DNA from: Methanofollis sp. W23
GTDB lineage: Archaea; Halobacteriota; Methanomicrobia; Methanomicrobiales; Methanofollaceae
NCBI RefSeq assembly: GCF_017875325.1
Contig: NZ_JAGGMN010000001.1
Span: forward strand, 1,240,001 to 1,304,000
Reading direction: 5' to 3'
DNA: 64,000 nt
The stretch's first letter is position 1. Each line of letters begins with the position of its first letter. Shown here one piece after another: positions 1,651 to 6,245 of the stretch. A program made the translations under genes and the position numbers. Below the pieces are notes generated by a model. That model did no database searches and was not told the DNA's origin. It saw only the letters and a program-made list of their open reading frames with translations.

Positions 1651-1989
1651 TCAGAGCAGTCTTGTAGCCCCTGTCGGCCGCGGCACCTTGACCACCAGCA
1701 CCCTGAAGTCCTGGTCAGAGTCGTTGAACCACCGGTGCGGGATCCCTGCCGGGCTCTCGACAAGGTGGTCTCTCTCCACGCGCGCCCCTTCGTCACCGAT
1801 CTCGACGACACCGACCCCCTCAAGGACATAGAAGAAGACGTCCACAGGGGTGATGTGCTGTTTAAGGGTCTCTCCAGGCTTGAGGGTGATGACGACGGCG
1901 ACGGCGTCTTTGGAGTCATAGACTTTTCTGGCGTCCACATGATGGGGATTTGGGTGGACCGGCACCTCGGTGAGATTGATGATATTCAT
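1651..1989 (-). CDS. Cupin-domain protein
   Basis: The 112-residue product is a single conserved beta-barrel cupin. Motif 1 is at about residues 34-55 (LKPGETLKQHITPVDVFFYV, with E/H metal-ligand candidates) and motif 2 at about 76-90 (LVESPAGIPHRWFND, with the conserved PxG..H). The length is normal for a one-domain cupin. It starts 14 bases after the stop of the CooS-like gene on the same strand, so the two are probably co-transcribed. Small cupins of this kind bind a metal and act as dioxygenase-like enzymes, isomerases or sensors; the substrate cannot be read from sequence. The pairing suggests a link to redox or metal handling, but that is only inference. Confidence 0.8.
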   Translation of the reverse strand: MNIINLTEVPVHPNPHHVDARKVYDSKDAVAVVITLKPGETLKQHITPVDVFFYVLEGVGVVEIGDEGARVERDHLVESPAGIPHRWFNDSDQDFRVLVVKVPRPTGATRLL

Positions 1990-2003: not shown

Positions 2004-3908
2004 TCATATTCCAAGCCCGGCTCTCTTCTCCCTGATGTGCCCGGCGATCCCGTCGGCCGCCGCCGTCGCATCCTTCTCAAGGGCCAGCACCCCGCCGGTG
2101 AGTCCCTGGATCTCGTCGGTGAGCAGGGCAACGAGGTTCGGCGCCCCGGTCACGGTCGGGACCGGGTTGACATAGGTGTACAGCCCGAAGGCAAGGGCGA
2201 AGATGGCGTCGACCGTTGCCTTCTGCTCCATGTATTCGGGGGCCGCCACCGCCACCGGCAGGGCGGGCACCGGCACTCCGCCGAGGGCGTCGGCGATCGT
2301 TGCGACGAGGTCGGCGCACCGCCCGGTGTCGGTGCAGGTCCCAAAGGAGAGGACCGGCGGGATGCCAAGGCCGGTGCAGATCTTTTTCAGTCCAGGCCCG
2401 GCCAGAGCAGCGGCCTCGGGAGAGCAGAGTCCGGCGACCTGCATCGCCGCGTTCCCGCACCCCATCGAGAGGACAAGGATGTCGCGTGCGATCAGTTCCT
2501 TCGCCACCGTGACCGAGTGAACGTCCTGCCCCTGGTCCCGGAGAGTGGTGCAGGAGACGAGGGCGACGACGCCCTGAATGCGCCCGTCTTTGATCGCTTC
2601 GAGGAGCGGGGCAAGACTCCCACCGAGGGCGGCGGCGATGCTCTCCGGGGAGAACCCGGCGACCGCCTCCCCCACCGGGAGCCCGGCGAGCGGTTCGACG
2701 GTGCCGTGCCGCCCCTTGAAATTCTCGATCCCCATCTGGAGCAACCTGGCCGCCTGCGCATCGGCCTGCACCGGGTCATAGTCCACCCTGTTCTCGACCC
2801 CCTCGAAGGCAACGAGTTCGGAGACCGGGACCAATTTGAAATGATATTTCTCCGCGTACGCCGGGTCGAGCGGGAGTGAACAGTTCATGTCGGCCACAAA
2901 GACATCGACCGCCCCGGTGGCGAGCACCGCCTCCTGCATGATCCAGTTCCCGGTATACCCCCAGAAGACCTCGTCCACCTGGAGACGCTGGACCATTTCC
3001 TGCCCGGTCTCGATATTGGCGATGACCCTGATCCCCTTCGCCCCGGCCGCCTCTGCCGCCGCCTGCCAGGCCGGATCCCTCGCACGCTCCACCAGCGCGA
3101 ACCCGAGGAAAGGTTCGTGACCGTTCGGGAGGAGGTTCACATAGTCCGGGTCCAGGACGCCGAGGTCGACCCTGATTGAGTGGGGTTTCGGCGTACCGAA
3201 GAGGCAGTCTTGCAGGGTCTCCAGGACCACCTGGCTCTGGTAGGCCATCGCCACCCCGAGGCGCAGCGCCTTTCTGGCGAGCGAGAGGTAGGACCCGTCC
3301 ACGTTTGTGAGGCACGAACTCGTGGTGCGCATCATCTCCCCATAGATCCCGCCAGGAAAGATCCCGAGATCTTGCCAGACCTTCCGCCGTTCACGCGGGG
3401 CGAGCCGCTCGACGATCACGCTCTCCTCCTCGGTGTGTCGGTGGAAGTCCCTCTCCAGGAAGTCGCAGAGACGCAGCGCCACCTCGGCGTCCTCGCCGCC
3501 GGTGAGGACACCGAGTCGCCTGGCAAAATCGGCGAGTTTTTCCGGCTCCTGGATCCGGTATGGCGTCCGGCCGCGGGCCGTCTCGCGCAGGGTCCGCACC
3601 GTCTGCTCGCAGTGGTAGTGGTAGGTCGAGGCCCCCATCACATTGCGCAGGAGCATCATCCGCATCGCCATCCCGTCGGCCGAGATCCCGCAGACCCCGC
3701 GTTTGTCCTGTGCGGCGTCGGCCCGGCAGGGACCGTTGGAGCAGAAGTCGCAGCGGACACCGCCGGTGCAGAAGGCGCACCGTTGGTCAGGGTCACCGCC
3801 CAGTCCCTGGGCCTCGTAGCGGTCCCAGACATTCGAGATGCCGTCTTTTTTCAGGCGTTCATACGCTCTCTTCACCGACGCATGATATGAGATCCGTTCT
3901 GGTTCCAT
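2004..3908 (-). CDS. CooS-type Ni/Fe carbon monoxide dehydrogenase homologue with altered active-site ligands
   Basis: The 634-residue product has the length and fold signatures of monofunctional anaerobic CODH (CooS). Cys44 and Cys47 form a CX2C pair (D-cluster type), followed by Cys53, Cys56, Cys61 and Cys73 (B-cluster). C-cluster ligands expected from CODH are present as His264 (NGHEP), Cys343 (ADMNC), Cys453 (VSCTT), Cys484 (MGCGN) and Cys525 (FGTCTD). The usual CCTANE segment, which supplies one Cys ligand, is replaced by I299-E300-T-G-Q-E304. The Lys motif normally read as HEKA is E561-Q562-K563-A, the form seen in hybrid-cluster proteins. CO oxidation is therefore doubtful; a hybrid-cluster-like oxo cluster reducing hydroxylamine or a similar oxidant is a reasonable alternative. 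I used the ATG giving MEPERISYH because the upstream extension is Pro-rich and lacks homology. No cooC, cooF or CODH/ACS gene is nearby. A cupin gene follows after 14 bases. Confidence 0.85.
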   Translation of the reverse strand: MEPERISYHASVKRAYERLKKDGISNVWDRYEAQGLGGDPDQRCAFCTGGVRCDFCSNGPCRADAAQDKRGVCGISADGMAMRMMLLRNVMGASTYHYHCEQTVRTLRETARGRTPYRIQEPEKLADFARRLGVLTGGEDAEVALRLCDFLERDFHRHTEEESVIVERLAPRERRKVWQDLGIFPGGIYGEMMRTTSSCLTNVDGSYLSLARKALRLGVAMAYQSQVVLETLQDCLFGTPKPHSIRVDLGVLDPDYVNLLPNGHEPFLGFALVERARDPAWQAAAEAAGAKGIRVIANIETGQEMVQRLQVDEVFWGYTGNWIMQEAVLATGAVDVFVADMNCSLPLDPAYAEKYHFKLVPVSELVAFEGVENRVDYDPVQADAQAARLLQMGIENFKGRHGTVEPLAGLPVGEAVAGFSPESIAAALGGSLAPLLEAIKDGRIQGVVALVSCTTLRDQGQDVHSVTVAKELIARDILVLSMGCGNAAMQVAGLCSPEAAALAGPGLKKICTGLGIPPVLSFGTCTDTGRCADLVATIADALGGVPVPALPVAVAAPEYMEQKATVDAIFALAFGLYTYVNPVPTVTGAPNLVALLTDEIQGLTGGVLALEKDATAAADGIAGHIREKRAGLGI

Positions 3909-3982: not shown

Positions 3983-4415
3983 CTCTGTGGAATATAGCAT
4001 GAACCTTGAGGCTCAGGCATATGGAATGAAATATTCTCGTCACGTGCTTTCTCTCTTTCCAGGACTGGAGAAGTGGTGGAGACCGTGTTCACTTCGCCGT
4101 CCCCACCTCTCCTCGTCGCGGGGCCCGGCGCAAGATGACGACGAAGATCCCGTGACTGAGGGCGGCCATTCTTAATCGGCGTGCCTTCTTGCGCCTGGCG
4201 GGGACACGTGCCGCCTGGAACCCCGAGATGAAGATAAGGACGAGAAGGCAGAGGCTCGATCATTCAGGAGAGAGATCTGTAATCTGTGTATCTTTCTTAA
4301 AGGAAATCTGGTGAATTCGACGTCCTGTCTTCATCCTTGGGGTCAGCGAACCCTGTGACATGAAATTTTCAATCGCGTATGCGTGAACCCCACGTTCATA
4401 CCCGATTCTACAGAG
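3983..4415. repeat. MITE-like intergenic element with imperfect terminal inverted repeats
   Basis: The left end reads CTCTGTGGAATATAGCATGAA. The right end, reverse-complemented, reads CTCTGTAGAATCGGGTATGAA, which agrees at about 16 of 21 positions. The interior holds family modules (GAAATATTCTCGTCACGTGC, CTCTCCTCGTCGCGGGGCCC, ATCTGTAATCTGTGTATC) but no gene. The element lies about 75 bases upstream of the CooS-type start codon. The rest of the spacer (to 4,492) shows nothing further. Confidence 0.6.
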
Positions 4416-4492: not shown

Positions 4493-5866
4493 TCAGTCGA
4501 CCCGCCTGATCGGCGGGAGGAGGTACGACCCGTCCAGGACCGCCTGGTCGGGCTGGTACATCCGCATGATCGGCCTGAACTCCCCTTCAGGTGCGGGGAG
4601 CCAGTTCGACTCCTTCTCATGCCCTGGCGGGTCGTACTGGATATAGAGGTCGAGCGAACCGTCGTCATGGTACTGCAGTCCTGGAGTGCGGTCGCCGATG
4701 GAATAGCGGCCGATGGGGTTTTCAACCAGGAGATAGTCGGGCGAGGAGTACATCGTCACCGACCAGAAGGCGCCGACCGGAGGGAGGTGGTCGAAGTGGA
4801 GGAGGTAGTGGCGCTCGCCGGTGAGAAGGTCGCCCTCGCCGTCCTCGTAGGTCCAGGGATATGCCGCCTCGTAGCCGTGGTTGCCAAAGAGCCCGGCCCT
4901 CGCTGCCGCCGCACGACGCATGAAGTTCCCGCTGGTCCATGCCTCCTCCTGCACTGTCCCGACCTCGAAGAACCTGGTGTTGTAGTCCCAGAGGTGCGTG
5001 GTGTACAGCCACCCGTTCACCTTCGGGAGAGCGCTCCTGATGTATGTCCGGATCACCTTCTCGGCCGCGGTCCGCCCGAGGGTCAGCACCGCGGCGATCT
5101 CCGGTTCTGGGTCGAGGTACGGGCTCTCCTTCTCGGTGAGTCCGAGCAGGGCAAAACGGTCGAGGTACTCACCCTCGTCGGCAGGGGGCGGGTAGGCCTG
5201 CATCCAGACCCGCATCTCCTCCCAGACCAGGAGATCGGCCCTGACGCCAGGGCGGGGTGCAGGGAACGCCCAGTCATCGTGACGTCGATTTCCGAGATCA
5301 GGGGGGGTTTCTGGCCAGGCATGGAGAGGGGTGAGGGTGTACTGCTGCTGGAGGGCGCGGACCGCGGGCACGTCGTCGGCCCCGCTCACCTCGGTCCGCC
5401 CGATGATGCCCATGAGGTCGGTCGGCGCCCTGATCCCGGCCACGCCCCGGGGAAGAGTCCCCCCCCATTCTGGCCCGACAAACGCATAGACCCCCTCCTC
5501 TGTCCCGGTCGCTCGCCGACCCAGATATGCAAAGTTGTTCGTCCATGCGTCCACGCACTGCATGACATAGTAACGCCCATGGGTGTCTGGGAGATGGAGA
5601 ACCATCGGTTCGGGCCCCACGTCGACGACCGCAACCGAGTACAGGGTGTCGTTGTTGGGCGAGACCACCTGCCTGAACGCCGGGTCGAGCAACTGGTCGG
5701 CATGCCAGAAGGCGTTCACCGGGGCGCCCATCGCCCCCTCGATCCCGCGGGTCATCTGAGTCATAGTGCGGACGCACTCGGTCAGTGGGTAGCCGTATAG
5801 ATAGGCATCCCGTGCAAGCCCGACAAGTTCCTCATATCTCTTCTCTTCTGCCAGTAGCGTTCTCAA
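4493..5866 (-). CDS. DUF1254/DUF1214 domain protein
   Basis: The product is about 457 residues. The N-terminal half matches DUF1254 (RDAYLYGYPL, then VVSPNNDTLYSVAVVDVG, VLHLPDTHGRYYVMQCVDAW). The C-terminal half matches DUF1214 (HLPPVGAFWSVTMYS, NPIGRYSIGDRTPGL, DLYIQYDPPGHEKESNWLPAP). These proteins are widespread in bacteria and archaea and have no agreed biochemical function. The domain homology begins about nine codons after a TTG preceded by GGGGGATG, so I placed the start there; an upstream ATG at 5,938 is possible but adds a segment without family similarity. I see no signal peptide with this start. The gene stands alone between repeat-filled spacers. Confidence 0.8.
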   Translation of the reverse strand: MRTLLAEEKRYEELVGLARDAYLYGYPLTECVRTMTQMTRGIEGAMGAPVNAFWHADQLLDPAFRQVVSPNNDTLYSVAVVDVGPEPMVLHLPDTHGRYYVMQCVDAWTNNFAYLGRRATGTEEGVYAFVGPEWGGTLPRGVAGIRAPTDLMGIIGRTEVSGADDVPAVRALQQQYTLTPLHAWPETPPDLGNRRHDDWAFPAPRPGVRADLLVWEEMRVWMQAYPPPADEGEYLDRFALLGLTEKESPYLDPEPEIAAVLTLGRTAAEKVIRTYIRSALPKVNGWLYTTHLWDYNTRFFEVGTVQEEAWTSGNFMRRAAAARAGLFGNHGYEAAYPWTYEDGEGDLLTGERHYLLHFDHLPPVGAFWSVTMYSSPDYLLVENPIGRYSIGDRTPGLQYHDDGSLDLYIQYDPPGHEKESNWLPAPEGEFRPIMRMYQPDQAVLDGSYLLPPIRRVD

Positions 5867-6245
5867 CCTACATCCCCCCGTGAGTGAGGCATGACGCCGG
5901 AGTATATGAAGGTGGCGCGGCTGCAACAGGGCAGGCATGCCGGCATGGAAAGGACACGCAGAAGGCCGACCATCATAAGAAAACCTATGGAGAGATCCTC
6001 TTGATAATGATCTCCAATGGTAGGACCAAATTTGAAGAATGGACTGAAGAAAGCACATCTCTCTCCAAAAATATGGAGTCTGCCTTCCCGGCTCAGTCCT
6101 CCCCCCTGGAGTCCAGAGGCAGAGTCCCGGACACGATCAAGGGGGAGGAAGGCGAGTGGGGCACGCTCGTACCAGAAGTATATCCCAATAGTCTCTTCGG
6201 GTGAAGATCCCCTCGAACCGAAGTGCTTCATTTCTGGAATTCTGG

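Follow-up and report, generated by a model that had tools for sequence, protein, structure and literature searches.

Within the proteins built on the carbon monoxide dehydrogenase (CODH) scaffold, group D-1 of clade D was defined by a type III D-cluster, a Glu at the position of the first C-cluster Cys and a Tyr at that of the acid-base His (Inoue et al., 2019, PMC6344411). CooS-V of Carboxydothermus hydrogenoformans was later solved (PDB 7B7Q), revealing a type III D-cluster motif that binds a [2Fe-2S] cluster and a Ni-free [4Fe-3S-nO] hybrid cluster (Jeoung et al., 2022, PMC9311411). CooS-V neither oxidises CO nor reduces CO2, its reduction of hydroxylamine is very slow (kcat 0.13 s-1), and catalytic NO reduction was not detectable; its potentials lie approximately 300 mV below those of the hybrid-cluster protein (HCP) of E. 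coli, leading the authors to infer a different physiological function, and its substrate channel is redox-gated, being opened by reduction (PMC9311411). The C295E variant of CODH-II was Ni-deficient and unable to oxidise CO (PMC9311411). The regulons of HCP respond to nitrogen oxides (PMC1274295, PMC5701242), and in D. desulfuricans NO induces both hcp (Ddes_1829, 3.17) and the cupin-fold gene numbered next to it (Ddes_1828, 4.4; PMC5701242). In a 2026 survey of CODH gene neighbourhoods clade D was left without a clear pattern, and cupins are unmentioned in its main text (PMC13056359).

The 64,000-nucleotide stretch of Methanofollis sp. W23 analysed here (the window) encodes a protein of this type (Table 1). 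It was matched by Pfam Prismane (E=3.7e-139) and scored 727 bits against TIGR01702 (CooS, cut-off 478), a CODH equivalog and its top-scoring NCBIfam model. The top match in a PDB search was CooS-V (7B7Q; 2e-206, 52% identity), which also ranked first (TM 0.92) in a structure search with an AlphaFold model derived from 21 sequences (mean pLDDT 85, with the N-terminal cluster-binding stretch, residues 35-63, below 50). Judged by its sequence, the protein is of the CooS-V type and, since it carries the features defining that group, is classed in clade D, group D-1, a kind known since 2019 and with a solved structure since 2022. A longer start, at the GTG at 4043, finds no support, as the alignments of relatives begin at the Met at 3908. 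Located 585 bp upstream on the same strand is a gene encoding a DUF1254/DUF1214 protein (4493-6058, minus strand, 521 aa by ORF); this gene and the PIN, Pelota-like and NFACT genes upstream do not form a neighbourhood conserved among the relatives' loci.

Table 1. Features of the CooS-V-type gene and the adjoining cupin gene (positions within the window)
Feature	Position	Strand	Remarks
CooS-V-type (clade D-1) CODH-like hybrid-cluster enzyme	2004..3908	-	634 aa; ATG at 3908, stop 2006-2004
C44-x2-C47, type III D-cluster Cys	3768..3779	-	inter-subunit [2Fe-2S] by homology
B-cluster Cys53, Cys56, Cys61, Cys73	3690..3752	-	alignment
His264 (CooS-V His259)	3117..3119	-	hybrid-cluster ligand by homology; alignment
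Glu300 (CooS-V Glu295; Ni-CODH Cys295)	3009..3011	-	Cys-to-Glu exchange marking hybrid cluster; PMC9311411
Asn342-Cys343 (CooS-V Asn337-Cys338)	2880..2885	-	Gln-Cys in Ni-CODH, Asn-Cys in HCP
Cys453 (CooS-V Cys449)	2550..2552	-	alignment
Cys484 (CooS-V Cys480)	2457..2459	-	alignment
Cys525 (CooS-V Cys521, persulfide-forming Cys)	2334..2336	-	alignment
Glu561-Gln562-Lys563 (EQK)	2220..2228	-	CooS-V Glu556 is a ligand; HCP has identical EQKA
Single-domain cupin, cup1 family	1651..1989	-	112 aa; 14 nt past the CooS-V-type stop, same strand

The ligand set was compared in a MAFFT alignment comprising the window protein, CooS-V (7b7q), 80 relatives (the best 80 of 418 matches) and, as Ni-CODHs, 6b6v, 6elq (C. 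hydrogenoformans CODH-IV) and the second CODH of the same genome. Residues H264, E300, C343, C453, C484, C525, E561 and K563 align with H259, E295, C338, C449, C480, C521, E556 and K558 of CooS-V and are invariant in all of these best 80 matches, whereas the Ni-CODHs have Cys at the position of E300 and Ser or His at that of E561. The Asn-Cys and EQK second-sphere motifs are likewise those of CooS-V and invariant in the relatives. The first-pass annotation had named the same eight residues, together with an Ile299 before Glu300, and the alignment bears it out on each; at the position of Cys295 in CODH-II there is indeed Glu300 and no Cys. Its description of a complete CODH set of D- and B-cluster Cys stands as to the presence of the Cys and is refined as to the D-cluster, which has the type III motif C44-x2-C47-x5-C53, with Arg52, directly before C53, replacing the Cys of canonical CODHs with a type II D-cluster. 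Tyr96, invariant in the relatives, occupies the position of the acid-base His found in the Ni-CODHs; Arg52 and Tyr96 are both hallmarks of D-1. The residues of a competent Ni,Fe-CODH are thus incomplete in two respects: Glu300 replaces one of the five C-cluster Cys, and of the acid-base pair Lys563 is present and the His is exchanged for Tyr96. Homology to CooS-V, with its solved cluster, lends strong support to the earlier proposal of a Ni-free, oxo-type, HCP-like cluster. By analogy with that homologue, the window protein would almost certainly contain a [4Fe-3S-nO] cluster and lack CO oxidation.

The resemblance to HCP itself is more distant. Against TIGR01703 (HCP) the protein scored 25.3 bits vs a curated cut-off of 360.8, and is therefore not an HCP member by sequence. 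A profile comparison (hhalign) with HCP gave a probability of 97 (E=1e-10), aligning H264, N342-C343, C453, C484, C525 and E561-Q562-K563 with the H, NC, C, C, C and EQK of HCP. The GEM motif of HCP, which contains the first Glu ligand (Dv Glu268), was placed by hhalign at Glu304 and by an ungapped reading from the preceding strand at Glu300, both on sequence alone.

The genome contains a second CooS (G000:C1:1682883-1684667; L002:1471-3294), which is 36% identical to the window protein and canonical, with the motifs CCTGSE and EWYSQKA. Just upstream of it lies a gene for a MinD/ParA-like P-loop protein (L002:581-1387) that may be CooC. A literature search on Methanosarcina acetivorans CooS locus tags returned unrelated matches only.

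In a tree of 88 sequences with SH-aLRT support, the Ni-CODHs were split from the CooS-V types by a branch with a support of 100, and the proteins with 60% or more identity to the window protein formed one clade (support 100, stem of 0.68 changes per column), CooS-V grouping with a second set of proteins 47-56% identical to the window protein (support 90). Twelve diagnostic columns, among them Asp54, Phe270 and Ala297, set the window's clade apart from the remaining CooS-V types. Within this clade, Methanomicrobia, Asgard archaea, Bathyarchaeota, Actinomycetota, Chloroflexota, WOR-3 and Desulfobacterota are intermixed, and horizontal transfer of these genes is therefore likely. In the window's phylum, a CooS-V-type gene was found in 100 of 393 genomes, including all 8 sampled from the window's own genus; the nearest relative among the matches listed (94% identity) comes from a Methanofollis MAG. 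Two CooS-V-type genes contain a single in-frame TAG or TGA (G022:C1:1841650-1843551 and G115:C12:4213-6111), representing pseudogenes, sequencing errors or recoding.

The cupin gene downstream, the single cup1 copy in the window's genome, is probably co-transcribed with the CooS-V-type gene. Its model (pLDDT 90) has small metal cupins (1V70) and the Mn/Cu cupin TM1459 among its nearest folds, and the invariant residues His45, Asp50, Glu57 and His85 are candidate metal ligands. Profiles were built from the relatives' neighbour genes for cup1, the related cup2, an Rrf2 regulator and a family named fd, whose members have two 4Fe-4S motifs at the N-terminus and Cys residues in the C-terminal region. 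Neighbour genes were called by six-frame profile searches, and a partner was counted when located within 500 bp. The first 80 loci, being the best 80 of 418 matches, are biased to close relatives; relatives were dereplicated at 97% identity, leaving 114 in the window's clade. Here cup1 or cup2 was found in 29 loci, fd in 13 and Rrf2 in 4, with at least one partner in 40 of the 114. The other CooS-V-type set had a partner gene in 1 of 29 loci, and no partner was found beside canonical CODHs at 21 control loci (Fisher p=0.0004 for any partner, uncorrected for kinship). The remaining 74 relatives of the 114 have no recognised partner adjoining, which speaks against the HCP-like role considered below. 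In Actinomycetota the cupin gene precedes the CooS-V-type gene, in the window's group it follows, and the presence of the cupin on the tree needs at least 12 changes; the association has therefore arisen or re-formed repeatedly, or has been repeatedly lost. In Methanoculleus-type loci (L006, L008, L010, L012, L013, L020), the CooS-V-type gene is followed on its own strand, at 1.7-4.4 kb, by a cup1 and a cup2 gene, one of each. A full-length FrdX-like protein was not found in the window's genome.

The same families adjoin genes of true HCPs. Directly downstream and on the same strand, cup1 was present at 17 of 30 archaeal HCP loci. In a reverse search across the window's phylum, 150 cup1 genes were recovered from 130 genomes: 43 lie less than 300 bp from an HCP gene, all on the same strand (chance expectation approximately 0.1), 9 lie less than 300 bp from a CooS-V-type gene, 16 more are within 5 kb of either, and 81 are near none of HCP, CooS-V-type and canonical CODH genes. 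Since the 43 adjoining HCP-cup1 pairs are all confined to one archaeal family (f8, probably Methanosarcinaceae), they represent few evolutionary events and are not independent. The sole cup1 gene among the 150 that lies less than 300 bp from a canonical CODH (G338:C34:4864-7286) is on the opposite strand. In several related f8 genomes (G032, G041, G212, G300, G352), a single in-frame stop codon (TGA or TAA) interrupts the cup1 gene that follows hcp, indicating a shortened protein or decay. Among Desulfobacterota, fd adjoins hcp at 19 of 35 HCP loci examined, the position held by FrdX, the ferredoxin-like electron-transfer partner of HCP (PMC1274295, PMC5701242); it is by position and composition only that fd is called FrdX-like. 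Mutual exclusion of CooS-V-type and HCP genes was not found in the window's phylum, both being present in 39 genomes (33 expected); HCP was detected in only 4 of 32 sampled genomes of a mostly bacterial and Asgard set. The first-pass annotation had suggested that the cupin may belong to the same system, and both the adjacency conserved across lineages and the occurrence of this cupin family beside true HCPs support that suggestion.

The explanation that we consider probable overall is that of a homodimeric hybrid-cluster enzyme of the CooS-V type, acting with the cupin as a low-potential reductase that detoxifies N-O compounds. On the CODH scaffold of each homodimer, a Ni-free [4Fe-3S-nO] cluster would replace the Ni-Fe C-cluster, held by His264, Glu300, Cys343, Cys453, Cys484, Cys525 and Glu561, and electrons would pass from the bridging [2Fe-2S] D-cluster through the [4Fe-4S] B-cluster to the hybrid cluster. 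Because reduction opens the substrate channel of CooS-V, the enzyme should act as a reductase. As a guess, its substrate may be a small toxic N-O species, either hydroxylamine or another product of nitrogen-oxide stress. The small, putatively metal-binding cupin of the same transcription unit would work alongside the enzyme in an HCP-like manner, any chemistry ascribed to it being equally a guess. The partner genes common to CooS-V types and HCP support an HCP-like reductive role, and stress detoxification is on this ground rather to be expected. The first-pass annotation had arrived at a similar overall interpretation, of which the cluster and cupin parts are supported, while the N-O substrate is called into question by the very slow hydroxylamine reduction and undetectable NO reduction of CooS-V.

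Indeed, with a homologue so poor on NH2OH and NO, another substrate is quite possible. The same hybrid-cluster reductase could act outside reactive nitrogen species, for instance on a peroxide, on an oxime or N-hydroxy compound of metabolism, or on another low-potential acceptor, and the cupin would then act on that metabolite too. The potentials of CooS-V, far below those of HCP, agree with such a substrate, as does the frequent occurrence of cupin folds in enzymes and small-molecule binders, TM1459 being among the near folds; nevertheless, the partner genes are common with HCP, whose regulons are those of a nitrogen-oxide response, and we regard a substrate of this other kind as unlikely. 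For clade D, the authors of the 2026 survey suggested a redox sensor or regulator with a morphing cluster instead of an enzyme; in that survey, clade D neighbours include regulators and clade D co-occurs with active CODHs (PMC13056359). The Rrf2 regulator beside 4 of the 114 relatives and the canonical CODH in this genome are in line with that suggestion, which appears improbable given that the window protein has no fused regulatory domain, that CooS-V has a redox-gated substrate channel, that the partners are those of the HCP enzyme, and that an electron-transfer partner (FrdX-like) better fits an enzyme. That the database annotation is right, and the protein a working Ni-Fe CODH with an unusual Glu ligand, could be argued from its top NCBIfam model and from a fold and B- and D-clusters as in CODH; this is very hard to reconcile with the Ni deficiency and lost CO oxidation of CODH-II C295E, with CooS-V, Ni-free and CO-inactive with the same ligand set (PMC9311411), and with the separate canonical CODH of this genome.

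Both in methanogens and in environmental surveys, proteins of this type carry the annotation of CO dehydrogenases and are counted as such; the window protein should not be read as evidence of CO metabolism. The novel part concerns the accessory genes common to CooS-V-type enzymes and HCP; no paper joining these facts was found in a search that covered few subscription papers. The common cupin and ferredoxin-like partners offer a testable handle on the role of CooS-V-type enzymes and on the archaeal partners of HCP. It seems evenly balanced whether two hybrid-cluster enzymes of separate evolutionary origin, HCP and the proteins of a large CooS-V subclade with members in methanogens, Asgard archaea, Actinobacteria, Chloroflexi and other groups, rely on a single interchangeable kit of accessory genes for two related cupin subfamilies and an FrdX-like ferredoxin protein. 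If so, the cupin would be a general and so far unstudied part of hybrid-cluster chemistry, for instance in substrate delivery or sensing, and the operons of clade D would follow a conserved logic, none having been recognised before.

Compared with known systems, the window protein agrees with CooS-V in fold, in the seven hybrid-cluster ligands, in Asn-Cys, EQK and the Tyr for His, and in the CX2CX5C D-cluster, at 52% identity, and differs from it in belonging to a separate, long-stemmed and fully supported subclade often located beside a cupin or FrdX-like gene. All the defining motifs of group D-1 match, whereas HCP-type partner genes do not appear to belong to its description (Inoue et al., 2019, PMC6344411). 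With canonical Ni,Fe-CODH it has in common the overall fold, the B-cluster and four of the five C-cluster Cys, but the canonical enzyme has Cys at position 300 and lacks the Glu of EQK, with Ser or His at 561. HCP has the H, N-C, C, C, C and EQK motifs in register and, in common with the CooS-V types, cupin partner genes in archaea and ferredoxin-like ones in Desulfobacterota; unlike HCP, the window protein has a CODH-type N-terminus with a D-cluster.
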